A stretch of DNA of 54,519 nucleotides. It comes from Alphaproteobacteria bacterium. Its GTDB lineage: Bacteria > Pseudomonadota > Alphaproteobacteria > Micavibrionales > Micavibrionaceae. Positions 22,928 through 45,413 of the stretch are shown here, one piece after another. Made by a program: the position numbers and the translations under genes. The stretch spans positions 1 through 54,519 of the forward strand of contig JAJRSA010000023.1 of NCBI GenBank assembly GCA_024279035.1, given 5' to 3'. A model generated the notes under the pieces. That model did no database searches, was not told where the DNA came from, and saw only the letters and a program-made list of their open reading frames with translations. Within the stretch, counting starts at the first letter, position 1. Each line of letters begins with the position of its first letter.

Positions 22928-23014
22928 ACAATTCTCCCTTTTAAGGCGCTCCTGCTGAAAGGCCTTATATTGCTAAATAATTCTATTGTGTCAGTGATGA
23001 CAGATATGTGTGAA

Positions 23015-38476: not shown

Positions 38477-39067
38477 TTAGGGTTCATAAGCGAAAGTCTG
38501 AATAACACCATTATCGACAACAGGAGCTTGTGCAACGTTCGTCTCTATTTCTGAATTTTCTGTAGAGGCACTAAACATATCCTTAAGACTCTTCCCGCCG
38601 AACAAATTCATTTTCCCAGAGAAGATGTTTGAAAAAAAGCTCATAGCTTCATCAAGTACATTTTCAAAAAAATCACTTATTCCAGATCCAGAGAAAGGGT
38701 TACTACTAGACACATTTCCTTCTTCAATGGATTGAGAAAAAGATGCATATCTTTCCTCTATATTTTCCCACCCTGCTTTTACAGTATGGTTAGAAGATGT
38801 ATGGCCTTGAAGGGTAGCATTGGGAGAAGGAACAGTATCAACACGTTGTTGATTTGGTTGAGGAGAATCAGTGGCCGAATCACTAAATAGTCCTTTTACG
38901 CCATTTACTATAGAGTTCCCAATAGACAGCCCAACCCCAAATCCAGTTCCAAATCCAGCCTGAGACAAATACGAATTTGCACCATAATGGCGGTGACCTC
39001 CCCATCCGCGATGGTGACCTCCAAAACGTCCAGGAGGATAGTATCTTATAGAAAATCCATGTCCCAC
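38477..39067 (-). CDS. Unknown protein P3 with Gly/His-rich N terminus
   Basis: Unrecognised 196-residue protein. The start is a GTG at 39067 with an ideal AAGGAG about 9 bases upstream; the longer ATG frame has none. Residues 13-28 are Gly/His/Arg-rich (GRFGGHHRGWGGHRHY), a possible metal-binding stretch. A hydrophobic Gly-rich helix follows (about 35-58, GFGTGFGVGLSIGNSIV), then a Ser/Pro/Asn/Gln linker (about 63-92) and amphipathic helices with Phe and Met (DFFENVLDEAMSFFSNIFSG). There is no signal peptide. The layout is like P1 and P2. An exact CtrA-type site lies 76 bases upstream. Confidence 0.6.
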   Translation of the reverse strand: MGHGFSIRYYPPGRFGGHHRGWGGHRHYGANSYLSQAGFGTGFGVGLSIGNSIVNGVKGLFSDSATDSPQPNQQRVDTVPSPNATLQGHTSSNHTVKAGWENIEERYASFSQSIEEGNVSSSNPFSGSGISDFFENVLDEAMSFFSNIFSGKMNLFGGKSLKDMFSASTENSEIETNVAQAPVVDNGVIQTFAYEP

Positions 39068-39142
39068 GATATATTTCTCCTTTGTTTTTCTATTTCCATA
39101 CCTATTATATAGGAAGCATGCGCTATCATACAATAAATTATG

Positions 39143-39157
39143 TTAATATGTTGTTAA
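39143..39157. promoter_or_regulatory. CtrA-type box TTAA-N7-TTAA before P3
   Basis: TTAATATGTTGTTAA matches the CtrA consensus at all eight fixed positions. It lies in the short gap between DUF1150 and P3, upstream of P3. Confidence 0.5.
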
Positions 39158-39178
39158 CAAAGGGTTTATTAGGAGGAT

Positions 39179-39400
39179 TTAGTGAACCGTAACAGGCTTA
39201 AGATCTTGCTCTTGAGTGGCATTCATCGCGCGTTCAAGCGTTGAAAATGTTGCAAGAATATGCCCATCTGCGCCTCGGAGTTCATAACGGCTATCTCCTG
39301 TCTCAGCTTTAATATAGGCAAGTTGGTCAAGTCCCAACACTTTAAACGCTGAGGGAGAGAGATCCCTCAGAAAATCTTTAAACGATTTTTCTTGGTTCAT
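39179..39400 (-). CDS. DUF1150 family protein
   Basis: A 73-residue protein of the alphaproteobacterial DUF1150 family, recognised by LGLDQLAYIKA, YELRGADGHILATFSTLERAM and its constant position after a small heat-shock gene. It starts one base past the hsp20 stop, so it is in the same heat-shock transcript. Role unknown; perhaps a partner of Hsp20. Confidence 0.85.
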   Translation of the reverse strand: MNQEKSFKDFLRDLSPSAFKVLGLDQLAYIKAETGDSRYELRGADGHILATFSTLERAMNATQEQDLKPVTVH

Positions 39401-39401
39401 A

Positions 39402-39890
39402 TTATTGATCTTTCTTTTGGTTTAATTCAATGGCTTCCAGCTTTTTAATAGAGCCTGTCACGGGCGCTTTGCCCTTAATTTTGATCTGGCGGGCTGTTGA
39501 TTCAGGGACAATGCGTTGCATATCAATATGCAAGAGGCCGTTATCCAAAGACGCGTCCACCACTTCAATCCCATCAGCCAGAACAAAGCTACGTTGGAAC
39601 TGGCGTGCCGCTATGCCACGATGGAGATAAACACGATCAGAATTGAGGTCGTCTTCCTCCCCCTGACGACCACGAATTGTCAGTTGGTTCTGGTCAATTT
39701 CAACGCCGAGATTATCCATACTAAATCCTGCGACGGCGAGTGTGATCCGTAAACCAGTTTCACCTATTTGTTCTATGTTATAAGGGGGATACCCCTCAGA
39801 CGCATGTTTTTTTAAGCGATCAAAAGTTTGTTCAAAATGGTCAAATCCCAAGAACAAGGGACTATCGAAGAGAGAAAGGCGTGGTGTCAT
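39402..39890 (-). CDS. ibpA: Small heat-shock protein, Hsp20/IbpA type
   Basis: A holdase chaperone of 162 residues that keeps unfolded proteins soluble. The N terminus LFDSPLFLGFDHFEQTFDRL is the typical alphaproteobacterial class A opening. The alpha-crystallin domain (about 30-135) includes LAVAGFSMDNLGVEIDQNQLTIRG and FQRSFVLADGIEVVDASLDNGLLHI. The ATG at 39890 has AGGAG 7 bases upstream, whereas the in-frame ATG at 39896 is 1 base from it. A ROSE-like hairpin masks this Shine-Dalgarno. Confidence 0.93.
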   Translation of the reverse strand: MTPRLSLFDSPLFLGFDHFEQTFDRLKKHASEGYPPYNIEQIGETGLRITLAVAGFSMDNLGVEIDQNQLTIRGRQGEEDDLNSDRVYLHRGIAARQFQRSFVLADGIEVVDASLDNGLLHIDMQRIVPESTARQIKIKGKAPVTGSIKKLEAIELNQKKDQ

Positions 39891-39896
39891 TGTCAT

Positions 39897-39958
39897 GCTC
39901 CTTTTAATTTAGCAAGCGGTTCAATATAAATTTGTGACCCTTCAATAGGCATCACATG
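39897..39958 (-). promoter_or_regulatory. ROSE-like RNA thermometer in the hsp20 5' leader
   Basis: On the minus strand the sequence GCUUGCU (39917-39911) pairs with AGGAGC (39902-39897), leaving one bulged G (39913) and an 8-base loop. It thereby hides the Shine-Dalgarno. This copies the hallmark of ROSE thermometers, a U-U-G-C-U motif with an extra G opposite the Shine-Dalgarno, found before alphaproteobacterial small heat-shock genes. An upstream imperfect stem (GGGUC with GAACC) may complete the leader, which would be about 68 nt from the promoter at 39965. Confidence 0.5.
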
Positions 39959-39964
39959 GGAAGT

Positions 39965-39992
39965 ATTATAGTGTTTTTTTCAAAAAAATCAA
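39965..39992 (-). promoter_or_regulatory. Candidate hsp20 promoter
   Basis: A perfect TATAAT occupies 39965-39970 on the minus strand, with TTGATT 16 bases upstream. Transcription would start near 39958. A heat-shock sigma-32 element with proper spacing was not found. Confidence 0.5.
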
Positions 39993-40033
39993 ATTTCTTA
40001 GCTATATGGGTTAGAATCCCTTATACACAGAGG

Positions 40034-40648
40034 ATGAATGTAACTCGTTTTTTCCTTTTATTTCTGTGTGTGTGCTGTACAGCCTTCACCGCGAAGGCAT
40101 CTTGCCCTGTTATTCATCCTGCCTTAAAATTTACAGTGACGTCAGAGCCTGTAAAATATGATTATACGCTCGATAAAGCACAAATTCGGGTTAAATCAAA
40201 TGCATCTGGTCTTATCAGTGGACATGTTCAAGGACATGTAAATGTTGAGTTTTTTCCAAAAACACAGATAATTCAAAATGGTAAATGTCTTTTATTACCT
40301 CATGTTGAGGTGGTGATTACAAATAAACCTATTTTACGCATTGCTAAAAACTATTCAAAAGGGAGCTGTGAGTATCAAACCATCAAATCTCACGAAGAAA
40401 AACACATTCGCTTGATGAATAATTTTTTTAAAACACTGCCTCAAAATTATAGATCCTATTTACAGTCTGAATTCAAGGGGAAGGGGTCTGTCTCACTTAA
40501 AAATAAAGAAAAGTTAAAAAGACAATTACGCATGACTGCAGAAAAATTTGTTACAAAACTGACTCGAGATCAAAAAGAAATGCATAATAGAAACATCGAT
40601 CATCCAGACAAAATCGCTGTGGAATATGCTCTTTGCTCAGATTGGTAG
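40034..40648 (+). CDS. Exported protein with HExxH motif (DUF922-like predicted Zn protease)
   Basis: A 204-residue exported protein. A signal peptide covers residues 1-22 (FFLLFLCVCCTAFTAKA). A beta-rich region follows, then CEYQTIKSHEEKHIRLMNNF, in which HEEKH (120-124) is an HExxH zinc-metalloprotease motif. The arrangement (Cys, then HExxH and a helical basic tail) resembles the secreted DUF922 family. The ATG at 40034 is chosen because the signal peptide begins there, although its AGAGG is unusually close; a longer frame starts at 39956. It is divergent from hsp20. Protease activity is inferred from the motif. Confidence 0.65.
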   Translation: MNVTRFFLLFLCVCCTAFTAKASCPVIHPALKFTVTSEPVKYDYTLDKAQIRVKSNASGLISGHVQGHVNVEFFPKTQIIQNGKCLLLPHVEVVITNKPILRIAKNYSKGSCEYQTIKSHEEKHIRLMNNFFKTLPQNYRSYLQSEFKGKGSVSLKNKEKLKRQLRMTAEKFVTKLTRDQKEMHNRNIDHPDKIAVEYALCSDW

Positions 40649-41696: not shown

Positions 41697-42282
41697 ACAG
41701 AAAACTCCGCATAAAGTACCCCCTGTTCCATGGCGTTATTCATGGTCAGTTGCCCAGCTAGGGCATGGGAAAACAAGATTAACAGTGTCTCCCGATAAAA
41801 ATGTACGCTCTGAGCTTGCCACATTTTTGAATCTTGTGTCTTTGCCCTCTTTGGTCTGTGATTTAGAAATGCATCGCCGAAAGGGATGTCATACACTCCA
41901 TATTCATGGATGCATCCGTGCAGATATTGAGCAAATATGTGTCCATTCTTTGACCCCTATTCAAACACACATCGAAGAAGAGTTTGACAGCTACTTTGCA
42001 GACAGAGCCGATGCGGTTCCCTTTTCACATGCAAAAAAAGAGCTTTTTTCTAAATATGGAATGGACGATACACCCATTTTAGAAGAAGCCGAAGATCCTG
42101 AACCTATAGAGAATAGACACATTGATTTCGGCGCTCTTATCGTAGAATTTTTGTCTTTGTCTATCGATCCCTATCCTCATATAGAAGGCGCAGACTGTTC
42201 TTCACAAACGCCCTCTTCATCGCCCCCCTTAGAACGTAAAAATCCCTTTGAAGCGCTCAAGGACTGGAAGAAAAATAAATGA
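41689..42282 (+). CDS. DUF177 (YceD) protein
   Basis: A 197-residue member of the YceD/DUF177 family, linked in bacteria and chloroplasts to 23S rRNA accumulation. The family core is in LVSLPSLVCDLEMHRRKG and the acidic DFGALIVEFLSLSIDPYPH segment (about 143-161). Relatives are normally followed by rpmF and plsX; here an RND pump follows with a 4-base overlap, so the usual context has been lost. Confidence 0.8.
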   Translation: MSKQKTPHKVPPVPWRYSWSVAQLGHGKTRLTVSPDKNVRSELATFLNLVSLPSLVCDLEMHRRKGCHTLHIHGCIRADIEQICVHSLTPIQTHIEEEFDSYFADRADAVPFSHAKKELFSKYGMDDTPILEEAEDPEPIENRHIDFGALIVEFLSLSIDPYPHIEGADCSSQTPSSSPPLERKNPFEALKDWKKNK

Positions 42283-45200
42283 TTAACGCCATTGTTTCAG
42301 CGTCCTTTGTACGAACACGAACAATCTTACTGTTGCTTGTCCTTATTCTGATCACGGGTCTCTATGCATACAATGCCATTCCAAAGGAATCCTCCCCTGA
42401 TATAGACATTCCAAATTTATACGTCTCTATGGTACTAGAAGGCATTTCTCCAACAGATAGTGAACGCCTCCTCATTCGTCCAATGGAGCAAGAACTCACT
42501 ACCATTGAGGGCGTTAAGGAGATGAAATCCACAGCCTATCAGGGGGGTGGGTTTATTCTTTTAGAATTTCAGGCAGGATTTAATAAAGAGAAAGCGATTG
42601 AAGATGTCCAACGTGCTGTTGATCAGGCACGTGTCAATTTACCCGCAAGCATGGATTCAGATCCCAAAGTCACGGAAGTTAATTTTAGTCTCTTCCCTGT
42701 CTTAGCCGTCATGCTCTCAGGGGATGTTGATCAGCGGGTTCTCCTTAAAGTGGCGAGAGACATTCAGGACAAGATAGAGGCCTTGCCTTCTGTGTTAGAG
42801 GTAAACATTGCAGGAGACAGAGAAGAGCTTGTCGAAATTATTCTTAAACCTGCTTTGATTGAGAGTTATGGTTTACGAGGCAATGATCTCTTAAATTTCT
42901 TTGCCGCCTCTAACCGCCTTGTCGCTGCAGGCAACATGGATTCAGGTGTTGGACGTTTTGCCATTGAGGTTCCAGGATTATTTGAATCCGTCACAGATGT
43001 CATGGATATGCCTGTACGTGTTTCAGGAGATTCCGTCGTTAAACTGCGTGACATTGCAACGATCAGACGTAGCTTCAAAGATCCAGAGACCTATGCACGA
43101 ATCAATGGTACATCTGCTATTGGCTTGAACGTTGTGAAACGAACAGGCGAGAATGTAATTGATACCATCGAACAGATTAAAAAACTGGTTCAAGCAGAGC
43201 AAGAGTTATGGCCTGACTCTTTACATGTTGATTTCATTTTAGACAATTCTAAAAGCATTCGTACTATGCTCAAAGATCTGCAAAACAATATGATTAGTGC
43301 CGTCTTGCTTGTGATGATTGTAATTGTGGCTGCCCTTGGGATGCGTTCTGCACTCTTGGTGGGCATTGCTATTCCGGGGGCTTTTTTAAGCGGTGTTCTC
43401 TTCTTGTACATTACTGGATTAACAGTGAATGTGGTCGTCCTTTTTGCCCTCATTATGTCCGTTGGAATGCTGGTAGACGGCGCCGTTGTAGTCATAGAAT
43501 ATGCGGATCGCAAGCTGGCCGAAGGTATGGACAAAAAAAGAGCCTATCAGGCAGCGGCGACACGGATGGCATGGCCGATTATTGCCTCAACACTTACAAC
43601 ATTGGCGGCCTTTGCTCCTCTCTTATTTTGGCCTGACATGGTTGGAGAGTTTATGAAATACATGCCTCTTACACTCATTGCCGTCTTGCTCTCCTCTCTG
43701 TTTATGGCCTTAATCTTTGTTCCTGTTTTAGGAGGAGTTATAGGCAAAGCAGGAGCTATAAATAATGAGACTTTAGAAAAAATTAAAACCTCTGAAACAG
43801 GAGATATAGAAACGTTGAGAGGTTTCACAGGAGGATATGTTCGTCTTTTAAAAAGGCTTCTCCACAAAGCATGGCTGGTTATTCCTGCAACTATACTCTT
43901 GCTCGTTGTTGTTATGGTCACATACGGTAAAATTGGAAAAGGTGTTGAGTTTTTCCCTAATATTGAACCAGAGATCGCCTCTATTCTTGTCCATGCACGG
44001 GGCAATCTCTCTATTGATGAGAAAGATATCATTCTCAAACAAGTTGAATCCCGTGTTTTAGATATAGAAGGCATCGATGTTTTTTACACGAGTGTCGGAA
44101 AAAACGATCAAAACAATCAAGACAGCGCCGAAGATGTGATTGGTCAGATTCAAATAGAATTTTCTGATTGGGATACGCGCAAGAGTGCACGTGCTATTTT
44201 ATCGCTCATCCGAGAAAAAACAAGCGACATCGCAGGTATACACATAGAGGCGCGAGAACAAGAAGAAGGTCCTCCTACAGGGAAAGCCGTACAAATAGAA
44301 CTCTCCTCTCGCTTTCCTGAAAAGATAGGACCTATGGTAGATCTCACCTATCAAGCTTTAGAAAACATTGGAGGCTTTATTGATCTGGAAGACAGCCGTC
44401 CACTCCCCGGCATTCAGTGGGATGTGCGCGTAGACAGGCCACAAGCAGCCAAGTTCGATGTGGATTTGTCTCTAGTTGGACAATATGTACGCCTTGTCAC
44501 GTACGGCCTCAAAGTTACAGACTATCGCCCAGATGACAGTGATAACGAGATTGACATTGTCATTCGTTATCCTGCACAAGAACGAACACTTGATCAGTTG
44601 GATCAACTCCGTATTGAGACGAATGCAGGATTAATTCCTATTTCCAATTTTGTAACACGTCTTCCAAAACCTGCAACAGGAACCATCAATCGAAGCAATC
44701 AAAGACGAATTATTACAATTAAGGCCGACCTTCCTCCAGATGTTAATATTGCAGAAAAAGTTAAAGAGCTTAAATATTGGCTCAAAGACCATAAACAAGA
44801 CATTGATCCACACGTTGCTATTAATTTTAAAGGTGAAGATGAAGATCAAAAAAACTCTCAAAAGTTTCTGATGAAGGCCTTTGCCATTGCACTTTTTGTC
44901 ATGGCTCTTATTCTTATTACACAATTTAATAGCTTCTATTATAGCCTCCTCATTTTGAGTGCCGTTATTTTGTCAACAATTGGTGTCATGCTCGGTCTTC
45001 TGATCATGGGACAACCCTTTGGAATTGTTATGAGTGGGGTGGGTGTAATTGCTCTTGCAGGGATTGTCGTCAATAATAATATTGTGCTCATTGATACCTT
45101 CCAACAGCTTAGAAAAGACACAACAAGTGATATTTTTCAAACGATTTTAAGAACAGGTGCTCAGAGATTACGCCCCGTTCTTTTAACAACCATCACAACG

Positions 45201-45413
45201 ATTCTCGGCCTATTGCCCATGGTTTTACAAATTAATATTGATTTTATAGGACGGGATATATCGATTGGAGCCCCCTCGACCCAATGGTGGGTACAGCTCT
45301 CTTCTGCGATTGTATTCGGGTTATCATTTTCTACCTTGTTAACGCTTGTTGTGACCCCCTGTGCGCTTTATTTACCCCATCAAATAAGGGGGTTTTTGCG
45401 GACACGCACTTAA
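42279..45413 (+). CDS. RND efflux permease (AcrB/HAE1 type)
   Basis: A 1044-residue proton-driven exporter with the RND layout: helix 1 at about 12-32, a large periplasmic loop, helices 2-7 (about 335-490), a second loop and helices 8-12 (about 870-1030). SVGMLVDGAVVVIEYADR is the helix 4 motif with the proton-relay Asp, and GIVVNNNIVLIDTF is its counterpart in the second half. It is translationally coupled to DUF177 (ATGA). There is no membrane fusion protein beside it; the one at 24647 may be its partner. Its stop overlaps that of def by 4 bases. Confidence 0.93.
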   Translation: MINAIVSASFVRTRTILLLLVLILITGLYAYNAIPKESSPDIDIPNLYVSMVLEGISPTDSERLLIRPMEQELTTIEGVKEMKSTAYQGGGFILLEFQAGFNKEKAIEDVQRAVDQARVNLPASMDSDPKVTEVNFSLFPVLAVMLSGDVDQRVLLKVARDIQDKIEALPSVLEVNIAGDREELVEIILKPALIESYGLRGNDLLNFFAASNRLVAAGNMDSGVGRFAIEVPGLFESVTDVMDMPVRVSGDSVVKLRDIATIRRSFKDPETYARINGTSAIGLNVVKRTGENVIDTIEQIKKLVQAEQELWPDSLHVDFILDNSKSIRTMLKDLQNNMISAVLLVMIVIVAALGMRSALLVGIAIPGAFLSGVLFLYITGLTVNVVVLFALIMSVGMLVDGAVVVIEYADRKLAEGMDKKRAYQAAATRMAWPIIASTLTTLAAFAPLLFWPDMVGEFMKYMPLTLIAVLLSSLFMALIFVPVLGGVIGKAGAINNETLEKIKTSETGDIETLRGFTGGYVRLLKRLLHKAWLVIPATILLLVVVMVTYGKIGKGVEFFPNIEPEIASILVHARGNLSIDEKDIILKQVESRVLDIEGIDVFYTSVGKNDQNNQDSAEDVIGQIQIEFSDWDTRKSARAILSLIREKTSDIAGIHIEAREQEEGPPTGKAVQIELSSRFPEKIGPMVDLTYQALENIGGFIDLEDSRPLPGIQWDVRVDRPQAAKFDVDLSLVGQYVRLVTYGLKVTDYRPDDSDNEIDIVIRYPAQERTLDQLDQLRIETNAGLIPISNFVTRLPKPATGTINRSNQRRIITIKADLPPDVNIAEKVKELKYWLKDHKQDIDPHVAINFKGEDEDQKNSQKFLMKAFAIALFVMALILITQFNSFYYSLLILSAVILSTIGVMLGLLIMGQPFGIVMSGVGVIALAGIVVNNNIVLIDTFQQLRKDTTSDIFQTILRTGAQRLRPVLLTTITTILGLLPMVLQINIDFIGRDISIGAPSTQWWVQLSSAIVFGLSFSTLLTLVVTPCALYLPHQIRGFLRTRT

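Follow-up and report, generated by a model that had tools for sequence, protein, structure and literature searches.

A two-hairpin, ROSE-like leader on alphaproteobacterial hsp20 and the same element on dnaK: a probable RNA thermometer

The window, i.e. the whole 54,519-nucleotide stretch of DNA that was analysed, encodes an IbpA-like small heat-shock protein, hsp20, and a DUF1150 protein (Table 1). IbpA is also the best NCBIfam match of the hsp20 product, at 109 bits and hence under the cut-off of 212. Considering that the DUF1150 gene adjoins hsp20 here, and that a DUF1150 relative lies 380-1100 nt past the hsp20 start in 90 of the 104 loci examined, the arrangement fits one shared messenger. 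On the 3' side of DUF1150 is a 218-aa open frame (38477-39133, minus strand), glycine- and histidine-rich near its start, for which searches of Pfam and NCBIfam returned no match. An RND-type efflux permease-like protein is encoded at 42279-45413 (plus strand), with NCBIfam matches below their cut-offs.

The promoter-like pair upstream of hsp20 is among the two best of nine such matches in 39100-40200, where shuffled sequence yields a mean of 2.6, and a TTGA-spacer-TATA-like pattern recurs in 18 of 30 hsp20 leaders of the order against 1.8 expected. From this match a transcript start near 39958 may be placed; the leader would then measure about 62 nt if translation starts at the first ATG (39896) and 68 nt if it starts at the second (39890). 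Although in frame, the first ATG (39896-39894) lies 1 nt from the Shine-Dalgarno sequence (SD), which is too close, whereas the second is properly spaced. An earlier reading of this DNA, made from sequence only, had derived a leader of about 68 nt from the TATAAT; the motif is indeed present, and the length fits the second ATG, with the promoter-like match as the one source for any leader length of 62-68 nt. On the minus strand, the leader reads GUGAUGCCUAUUGAAGGGUCAC from the TATAAT (39970-39965), then CCGCUUGCUAAAUUAAAAGGAGCAUGACAAUG.

Table 1. Features of the hsp20 locus in the window; bulged Gs are given in square brackets.
Feature	Position	Strand	Basis
hsp20, IbpA-like small heat-shock protein	39402..39896	-	Pfam PF00011, E 3.3e-15
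DUF1150 gene, directly 3' of the hsp20 stop	39179..39400	-	Pfam PF06620, E 6.7e-7
Promoter-like pair TTGATT - 16 nt - TATAAT (TATAAT 39970-39965)	39965..39992	-	10/12 consensus matches
Hairpin I: UGUGAU[G]CCU-AUUGA-AGGGUCACA, bulged G39950	39933..39956	-	MFE fold -8.4 kcal/mol, z -2.82
Hairpin II: anti-SD GCUU[G]CU (39917-39911) and SD AGGAGC (39902-39897), bulged G39913	39897..39917	-	sequence, MFE fold, relatives
Outer helix of hairpin II: UAUUG 39926-39922 and CAAUG 39892-39888, pairs the second start codon	39888..39926	-	MFE fold of the window's leader only
Second ATG, probable hsp20 start codon	39888..39890	-	spacing from AGGAG, read from sequence

The sequence-only reading had further proposed that the hsp20 SD is masked by an anti-SD strand with one bulged G. 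Indeed, G39917 C U U [G39913] C U39911 pairs with A39902 G G A G C39897 through six pairs that leave a single G bulged, and the minimum free energy (MFE) fold of the leader contains precisely this pairing and in addition pairs the second AUG. Upstream is another hairpin, hairpin I, absent from the earlier reading and equipped with a bulged G of its own; among 200 shuffles, one was as good. The remainder is not distinguished by its folding energy: the whole 72-nt leader is no better than its shuffles (z -0.69), the 27-nt SD stretch alone gives z -0.02 and an 87-nt stretch z +0.29. With the scores of leader and SD stretch near zero, the single sequence proves nothing. Computed opening of the SD increases from 0.0009 at 20 °C to 0.011 at 47 °C, with a 13.6-fold rise between 20 and 45 °C (range computed 15 to 52 °C). 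For 18 other frames of the window (at least 150 aa with an SD; leaders assumed to be 68 nt; some may not be genes), the opening rises more in 8 and less in 10, hence the hsp20 leader is not singled out and we dropped this quantity as evidence for a thermometer.

Relatives are more informative. Orthologues of hsp20 were gathered from the best 80 named contigs listed and from 57 genomes including the organism's own (51 of 57 matched, 30 loci taken). This gave 110 leaders, with start codons assigned by SD score, of which 105 were distinct after five duplicates had been dropped. UYGCU is found ahead of the SD in 92 of the 105 (among the matches listed) against 4.2% in shuffles, where the part upstream of the SD was shuffled and relatedness ignored; chance pairing is therefore unlikely. 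Azospirillum is among the relatives whose hsp20 leaders have the motif, in L017, L020 and L025. Hairpin I, with its bulged G and at least four outer pairs, was recovered in 71 of the 105 leaders (again among the matches listed) and in 25 of 30 within the order, against 2.0% shuffled. Among these listed matches, the anti-SD motif is missing in 13 of 105 leaders and the hairpin I pattern in 34 of 105. In the same-genus hsp20 leader L082 (1403-1512), hairpin I and the anti-SD hairpin seem to be separated by an additional, third hairpin.

The pairs next to the anti-SD motif were left free in the search and can be assessed for covariation. Directly beside it, a standard pair is formed in 33 of 87 stricter-motif leaders against 22.6 in shuffles (C-G 12, A-U 9, U-G 5, G-C 3, rest others), the commonest combination being an unpaired A with G in 29 of the 87, all counted among the matches listed. 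The second and third positions past the motif pair in 39 and 44 of the same 87 listed leaders, against 28.2 and 35.6. Within 27 leaders of the order, the first of the three positions alone exceeds shuffles (13 vs 9.2), and the second and third are without covariation (p 0.24 and 0.68). The pair beside the motif is G-C in the window and A-U in L082.

These frequencies bear on another view, namely that the leader has no role beyond stabilising the messenger or keeping basal translation low, with the SD masked constitutively and heat induction being purely transcriptional. Such a role would be congruent with the promoter-like TTGA-spacer-TATA pattern upstream of many hsp20 leaders, with a computed SD opening that rises no more than in many other leaders, and with the suggestion that a 5' hairpin stabilises the Pseudomonas ibpA messenger (PMC3669281). 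However, a bulged-G anti-SD kept in 92 of the 105 listed leaders speaks against it, as does the temperature response of the same geometry in the Pseudomonas ibpA leader (PMC3669281), and we find constitutive masking improbable.

Rfam offers a comparison that is independent of our own alignments. At the gathering cut-off nothing matches in the window. When the threshold is relaxed, the whole ROSE_3 model (RF02523) can be aligned to 39885-39958, with both hairpins, the bulge in each and the AUG positions in register. The match scores 18.7 bits, where 43 is required at gathering, and its E-value is 1.6 for the 4001 bases scanned, within which unrelated families produce four other matches of similar E-value; the score alone is thus uninformative, its place is informative. 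The ROSE covariance comparison proposed with the sequence-only reading therefore hits the exact place at a score under the cut-off: Rfam points to the right spot, and the element does not qualify as a ROSE_3 member. In 15 loci of relatives, six matches were obtained at E <=2, every one of them to ROSE_3 on the hsp20 leader (6 of 15 loci), and 20 relatives' loci at gathering gave two tRNAs and no ROSE match. ROSE_3 above cut-off was obtained in 0 of 57 relatives (9 of 57 at E <=0.1) and in 0 of 289 genomes of the class (6 of 289 at E <=0.01), figures that say little since both scans passed a lossy filter and none of 14 control genomes exceeded the cut-off either. Fourteen loci from these scans of relatives and class comprise six hsp20 leaders, one dnaK leader and seven places with neither gene.

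As MAFFT alignments of the leaders partly misplace the SD and hairpin I, we seeded a covariance model, R1, from four well-aligning hsp20 leaders (window, L002, L008 and L091). Two further models, R2 from hsp20 and dnaK leaders and R3 from the dnaK alignment alone, derive from alignments (A4-A6) that were fitted to R1's structure. Over 100 sources, R1 yields 39 matches: 36 end at an hsp20 start, two are located slightly 5' of it, still in the leader (L082, L037), and one is elsewhere, at 22941-23002 of the window. Over the organism's own 1.8-Mb genome it returns three: the window, which is a seed, the dnaK leader, and one at E 0.84 that was taken as chance. Matches at tuf and rne (names from translations; E 3.2 and 8) and a terminator-like match at L127 were likewise taken as chance. 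Extended to the 57 genomes, the model gives 47 matches in 31 genomes, at 26 hsp20 starts (three of them paralogues), 15 dnaK starts, one rpoH start and five places that are none of these, one inside a gene reading like malate dehydrogenase.

The dnaK leader is thus the sole other strong R1 site in the own genome (G000:C19:216500-216568, minus strand, L126; 40.1 bits, E 6.6e-6), and the gene behind it is dnaK (NCBIfam DnaK, E 9.7e-279). Its MFE fold reproduces the hairpin pair of the hsp20 leader, each hairpin with its bulged G, and the second places UCUU[G]CUUA over UAAGGAGA and hence over the dnaK SD, as in ROSE-type leaders. With extra flanking and coding sequence another fold wins at 37 °C and above. 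In the order, the cut-off used brought up dnaK in 48 of 57 genomes, and 44 leaders were read (30 plus 14 further loci; in L202 and L203 the start was taken 3 nt off). A model-free search detects hairpin I in 32 of the 44 against 1.1% shuffled, and in 26 of the 44 the SD is engaged in a stem with a bulged G, against 6.9%, with relatedness ignored in these shuffles as well; both hairpins are present in 20 and neither in 6. In several of these leaders UUUGCC against GGAAA or GGAGA replaces CUUGCU/AAGGAG, with the bulged G kept. A relative's small dnaK contig also carries a SAM-I/IV riboswitch match (L200 365-483, plus strand; 54.7 bits vs a cut-off of 41.1).

A model built from the leaders of one gene also finds those of the other. 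In the dnaK-only alignment (31 matches from the 44 loci at E <=2, fitted to R1), 91.0% of pair cells are standard and 85 double-change cells are observed against 24.4 shuffled, with slid versions pairing 45-59%. The best and sole window match of R3 at E <=0.5 is the hsp20 leader (47.3 bits, E 3.4e-6), and R3 matches 23 of 30 hsp20 sources, all at the hsp20 start. ROSE_3, which is independent of R1-R3, touches dnaK leaders below its cut-off in 1 of the 8 loci from the scan of the 57 relatives, the dnaK leader already counted above, and in 3 of 20 loci. A joint alignment of 49 leaders (31 hsp20 and 18 dnaK, drawn for the latter from 22 of 44 loci) has 93.9% of pair cells standard and 161 double changes against 45.5 shuffled, slid versions pairing 43-58%; in 21 of 48 sequences the outermost bases of hairpin II do not pair. 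Together with the pairs beside the anti-SD motif, these double changes indicate that the pairing is kept in relatives with compensatory changes, which was a check proposed with the sequence-only reading. The two hairpins, their bulged Gs, their conservation and the compensatory change are hence features of the hsp20 leader as read from its sequence and from comparison.

The same alignment informs on the level at which the element acts. Hairpin I is an inverted repeat near a promoter, and in the same set several groES genes are preceded by inverted repeats that we take to be CIRCE-like; a DNA-level palindrome, operator or attenuator, might accordingly be considered instead of an RNA fold. A U-G beside the hairpin I bulge in 31 of 49 sequences nevertheless argues for an RNA rather than a DNA element, since this pair and the G-U found elsewhere in the stem hold in the sense RNA only. 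Hairpin II, moreover, pairs with the SD, and we regard a DNA palindrome as very improbable.

Conservation of hairpin I, which does not itself cover the SD, raises another alternative: the leader as a translational operator bound by a protein, e.g. the small heat-shock protein repressing its own and the dnaK messenger until aggregates titrate it. There is a precedent in E. coli IbpA, which represses its own translation by binding the ibpA 5' UTR (PMC10474464). However, the loop of hairpin I, considered as a protein signal, is not conserved in sequence, and in hsp20 as well as dnaK the SD is directly covered by pairing. A protein operator and RNA melting can also coexist. As the explanation of the leader, an operator appears unlikely to us, if less so than constitutive masking.

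Beyond the order, dnaK was found in 144 of 153 genomes of the class, and 89 of the 144 other dnaK places listed were read. The same strict finder detects hairpin I in 23 of these 89 leaders against 2.1% shuffled, and UYGCY precedes an SD-like stretch in 18 of 89, a count without a shuffle baseline. R2 gives 16 matches at E <=1 on the 89 stretches, all on the dnaK leader; 60 of the stretches are only about 190 nt long, so the place of a match means little there. On 29 longer loci R3 gives 17 matches at E <=2, of which 16 are on the dnaK start. Thus, it is likely that versions of the element are present on dnaK across the class, weaker than those in the order. Inspected by eye, the class leaders (L281-L369) often have three features in common: a stretch like GGGGA, a hairpin GGUGCC...GGGCC and, ahead of the SD, UCUGCC or CCUGCC.

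Other heat-shock genes were inspected analogously. One rpoH leader (G033:C5:90623-90701, minus strand, L188/L207) carries both hairpins at 20.9 bits (E 0.2), and it is alone in this among the 37 rpoH leaders that could be placed, out of 41 stretches with G001 among the four unplaced. As hairpin I is present in 2 of these 37 and the own rpoH has neither hairpin part, rpoH was rejected as a shared bearer. At groES, the own leader (G000:C38:8079-8163, minus strand, L248/L251) is the third-best R2 match in the own genome (21.9 bits, E 0.37), and in 9 of 30 loci an R2 match at E <=5 falls on the groES start or no more than 23 nt away from it (five at E <=1); these nine belong to 12 R2 matches in 62 groES and rpoH loci, whose scores are low, 12.4-21.9 bits. 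The hairpin I test is passed by 12 of 30 groES leaders, part of them CIRCE-like palindromes. We consider groES a lead and make no claim for it. By eye, CUUGCU in the own groES leader can pair with AGAGG, and two same-genus relatives (L252, L253) keep YYU[G]CU. The region preceding groES in L254-L280 has an inverted repeat of CIRCE-like appearance, and the groES leaders of several relatives additionally contain a stretch resembling GCCUGCUUGUUUAACC.

In published descriptions, a ROSE-type thermometer has a leader of some 60-120 nt or more that folds into two to four stem-loops and sets an anti-SD U(U/C)GCU, its G unpaired, against the SD (PMC13104619, PMC3669281). The hsp20 leader carries UUGCU with G39913 bulged. 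The closest likeness is to the ROSE-like leader of Pseudomonas ibpA, where according to excerpts of PMC3669281 hairpin II melts while hairpin I stays, permitting translation after a temperature upshift: two hairpins, a stable hairpin I, U(U/C)GCU on the SD in hairpin II, a leader that is probably short here and an IbpA-type gene are common to both. Our element differs in belonging to an alphaproteobacterium, in a start codon that is predicted to be paired, and in being known from sequence and comparison; its hairpin I also carries a bulged G. Classical ROSE elements of rhizobia and Caulobacter share the small heat-shock gene and the anti-SD on the SD but have three to four hairpins, as against two here (PMC3669281, PMC4166951, PMC3989490, as excerpted).

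In geometry, position, probable leader length and conservation, the hsp20 leader thus agrees with the ROSE-like thermometer that was read from the sequence. We assign a probability of roughly 85% to the hsp20 leader being a two-hairpin ROSE-like RNA thermometer with the same element on dnaK, a shared design that probably tunes both chaperones. The messenger would begin with the stable 5' hairpin I, followed by the looser hairpin II, whose CUUGCU strand, with one unpaired G inside, would cover the hsp20 SD, the start codon of the own species being predicted as paired too. By analogy with Pseudomonas ibpA (PMC3669281), hairpin II is the expected sensor. On warming, hairpin II would melt and ribosomes would start on hsp20 and the adjoining DUF1150 gene; melting within the growth range and an effect on hsp20 translation are suggested by this analogy, and DUF1150 may be released together with hsp20. 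With the same element before dnaK in the own genome and in much of the order, translation of both chaperones would be temperature-tuned. Evenly balanced, in our judgement, is the broader proposition that one thermometer design serves the small heat-shock protein and DnaK in the order (perhaps also groES), with a diverged form on dnaK across Alphaproteobacteria, sensing heat in the messenger beside transcriptional control.

Taken alone, the hsp20 leader adds one more member to a known kind, one that the public Rfam model misses in the relatives scanned, all of which scored under its cut-off. The dnaK copy is the new part, as a thermometer of this kind is not expected on dnaK: a 2014 review, as excerpted, holds ROSE to be 'always associated' with small heat-shock genes, and a 2026 review adds Pseudomonas rhlA (ROSE) and lasI (ROSE-like) as others (PMC13104619). 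We found no report of a ROSE-like element on dnaK in the open-access papers covered by our search, including excerpts of PMC3669281, PMC4166951, PMC3989490, PMC13104619, PMC11109978 and PMC8155344. The dnaK motif PBC-38-1 of Enterobacteriaceae is likewise a structured element upstream of dnaK, yet it occurs in other bacteria, lies between dnaK and satP, and is in the excerpted text a protein-binding candidate, perhaps as ssDNA, and not described as a thermometer (PMC11109978).

The altered anti-SD of several dnaK leaders, UUUGCC against GGAAA, would show the bulged-G design adapting to another ribosome-binding site. Should dnaK be translated via this kind of element, its own messenger could in part read the set point of the heat-shock response, an idea that is directly testable in cultured Alphaproteobacteria.
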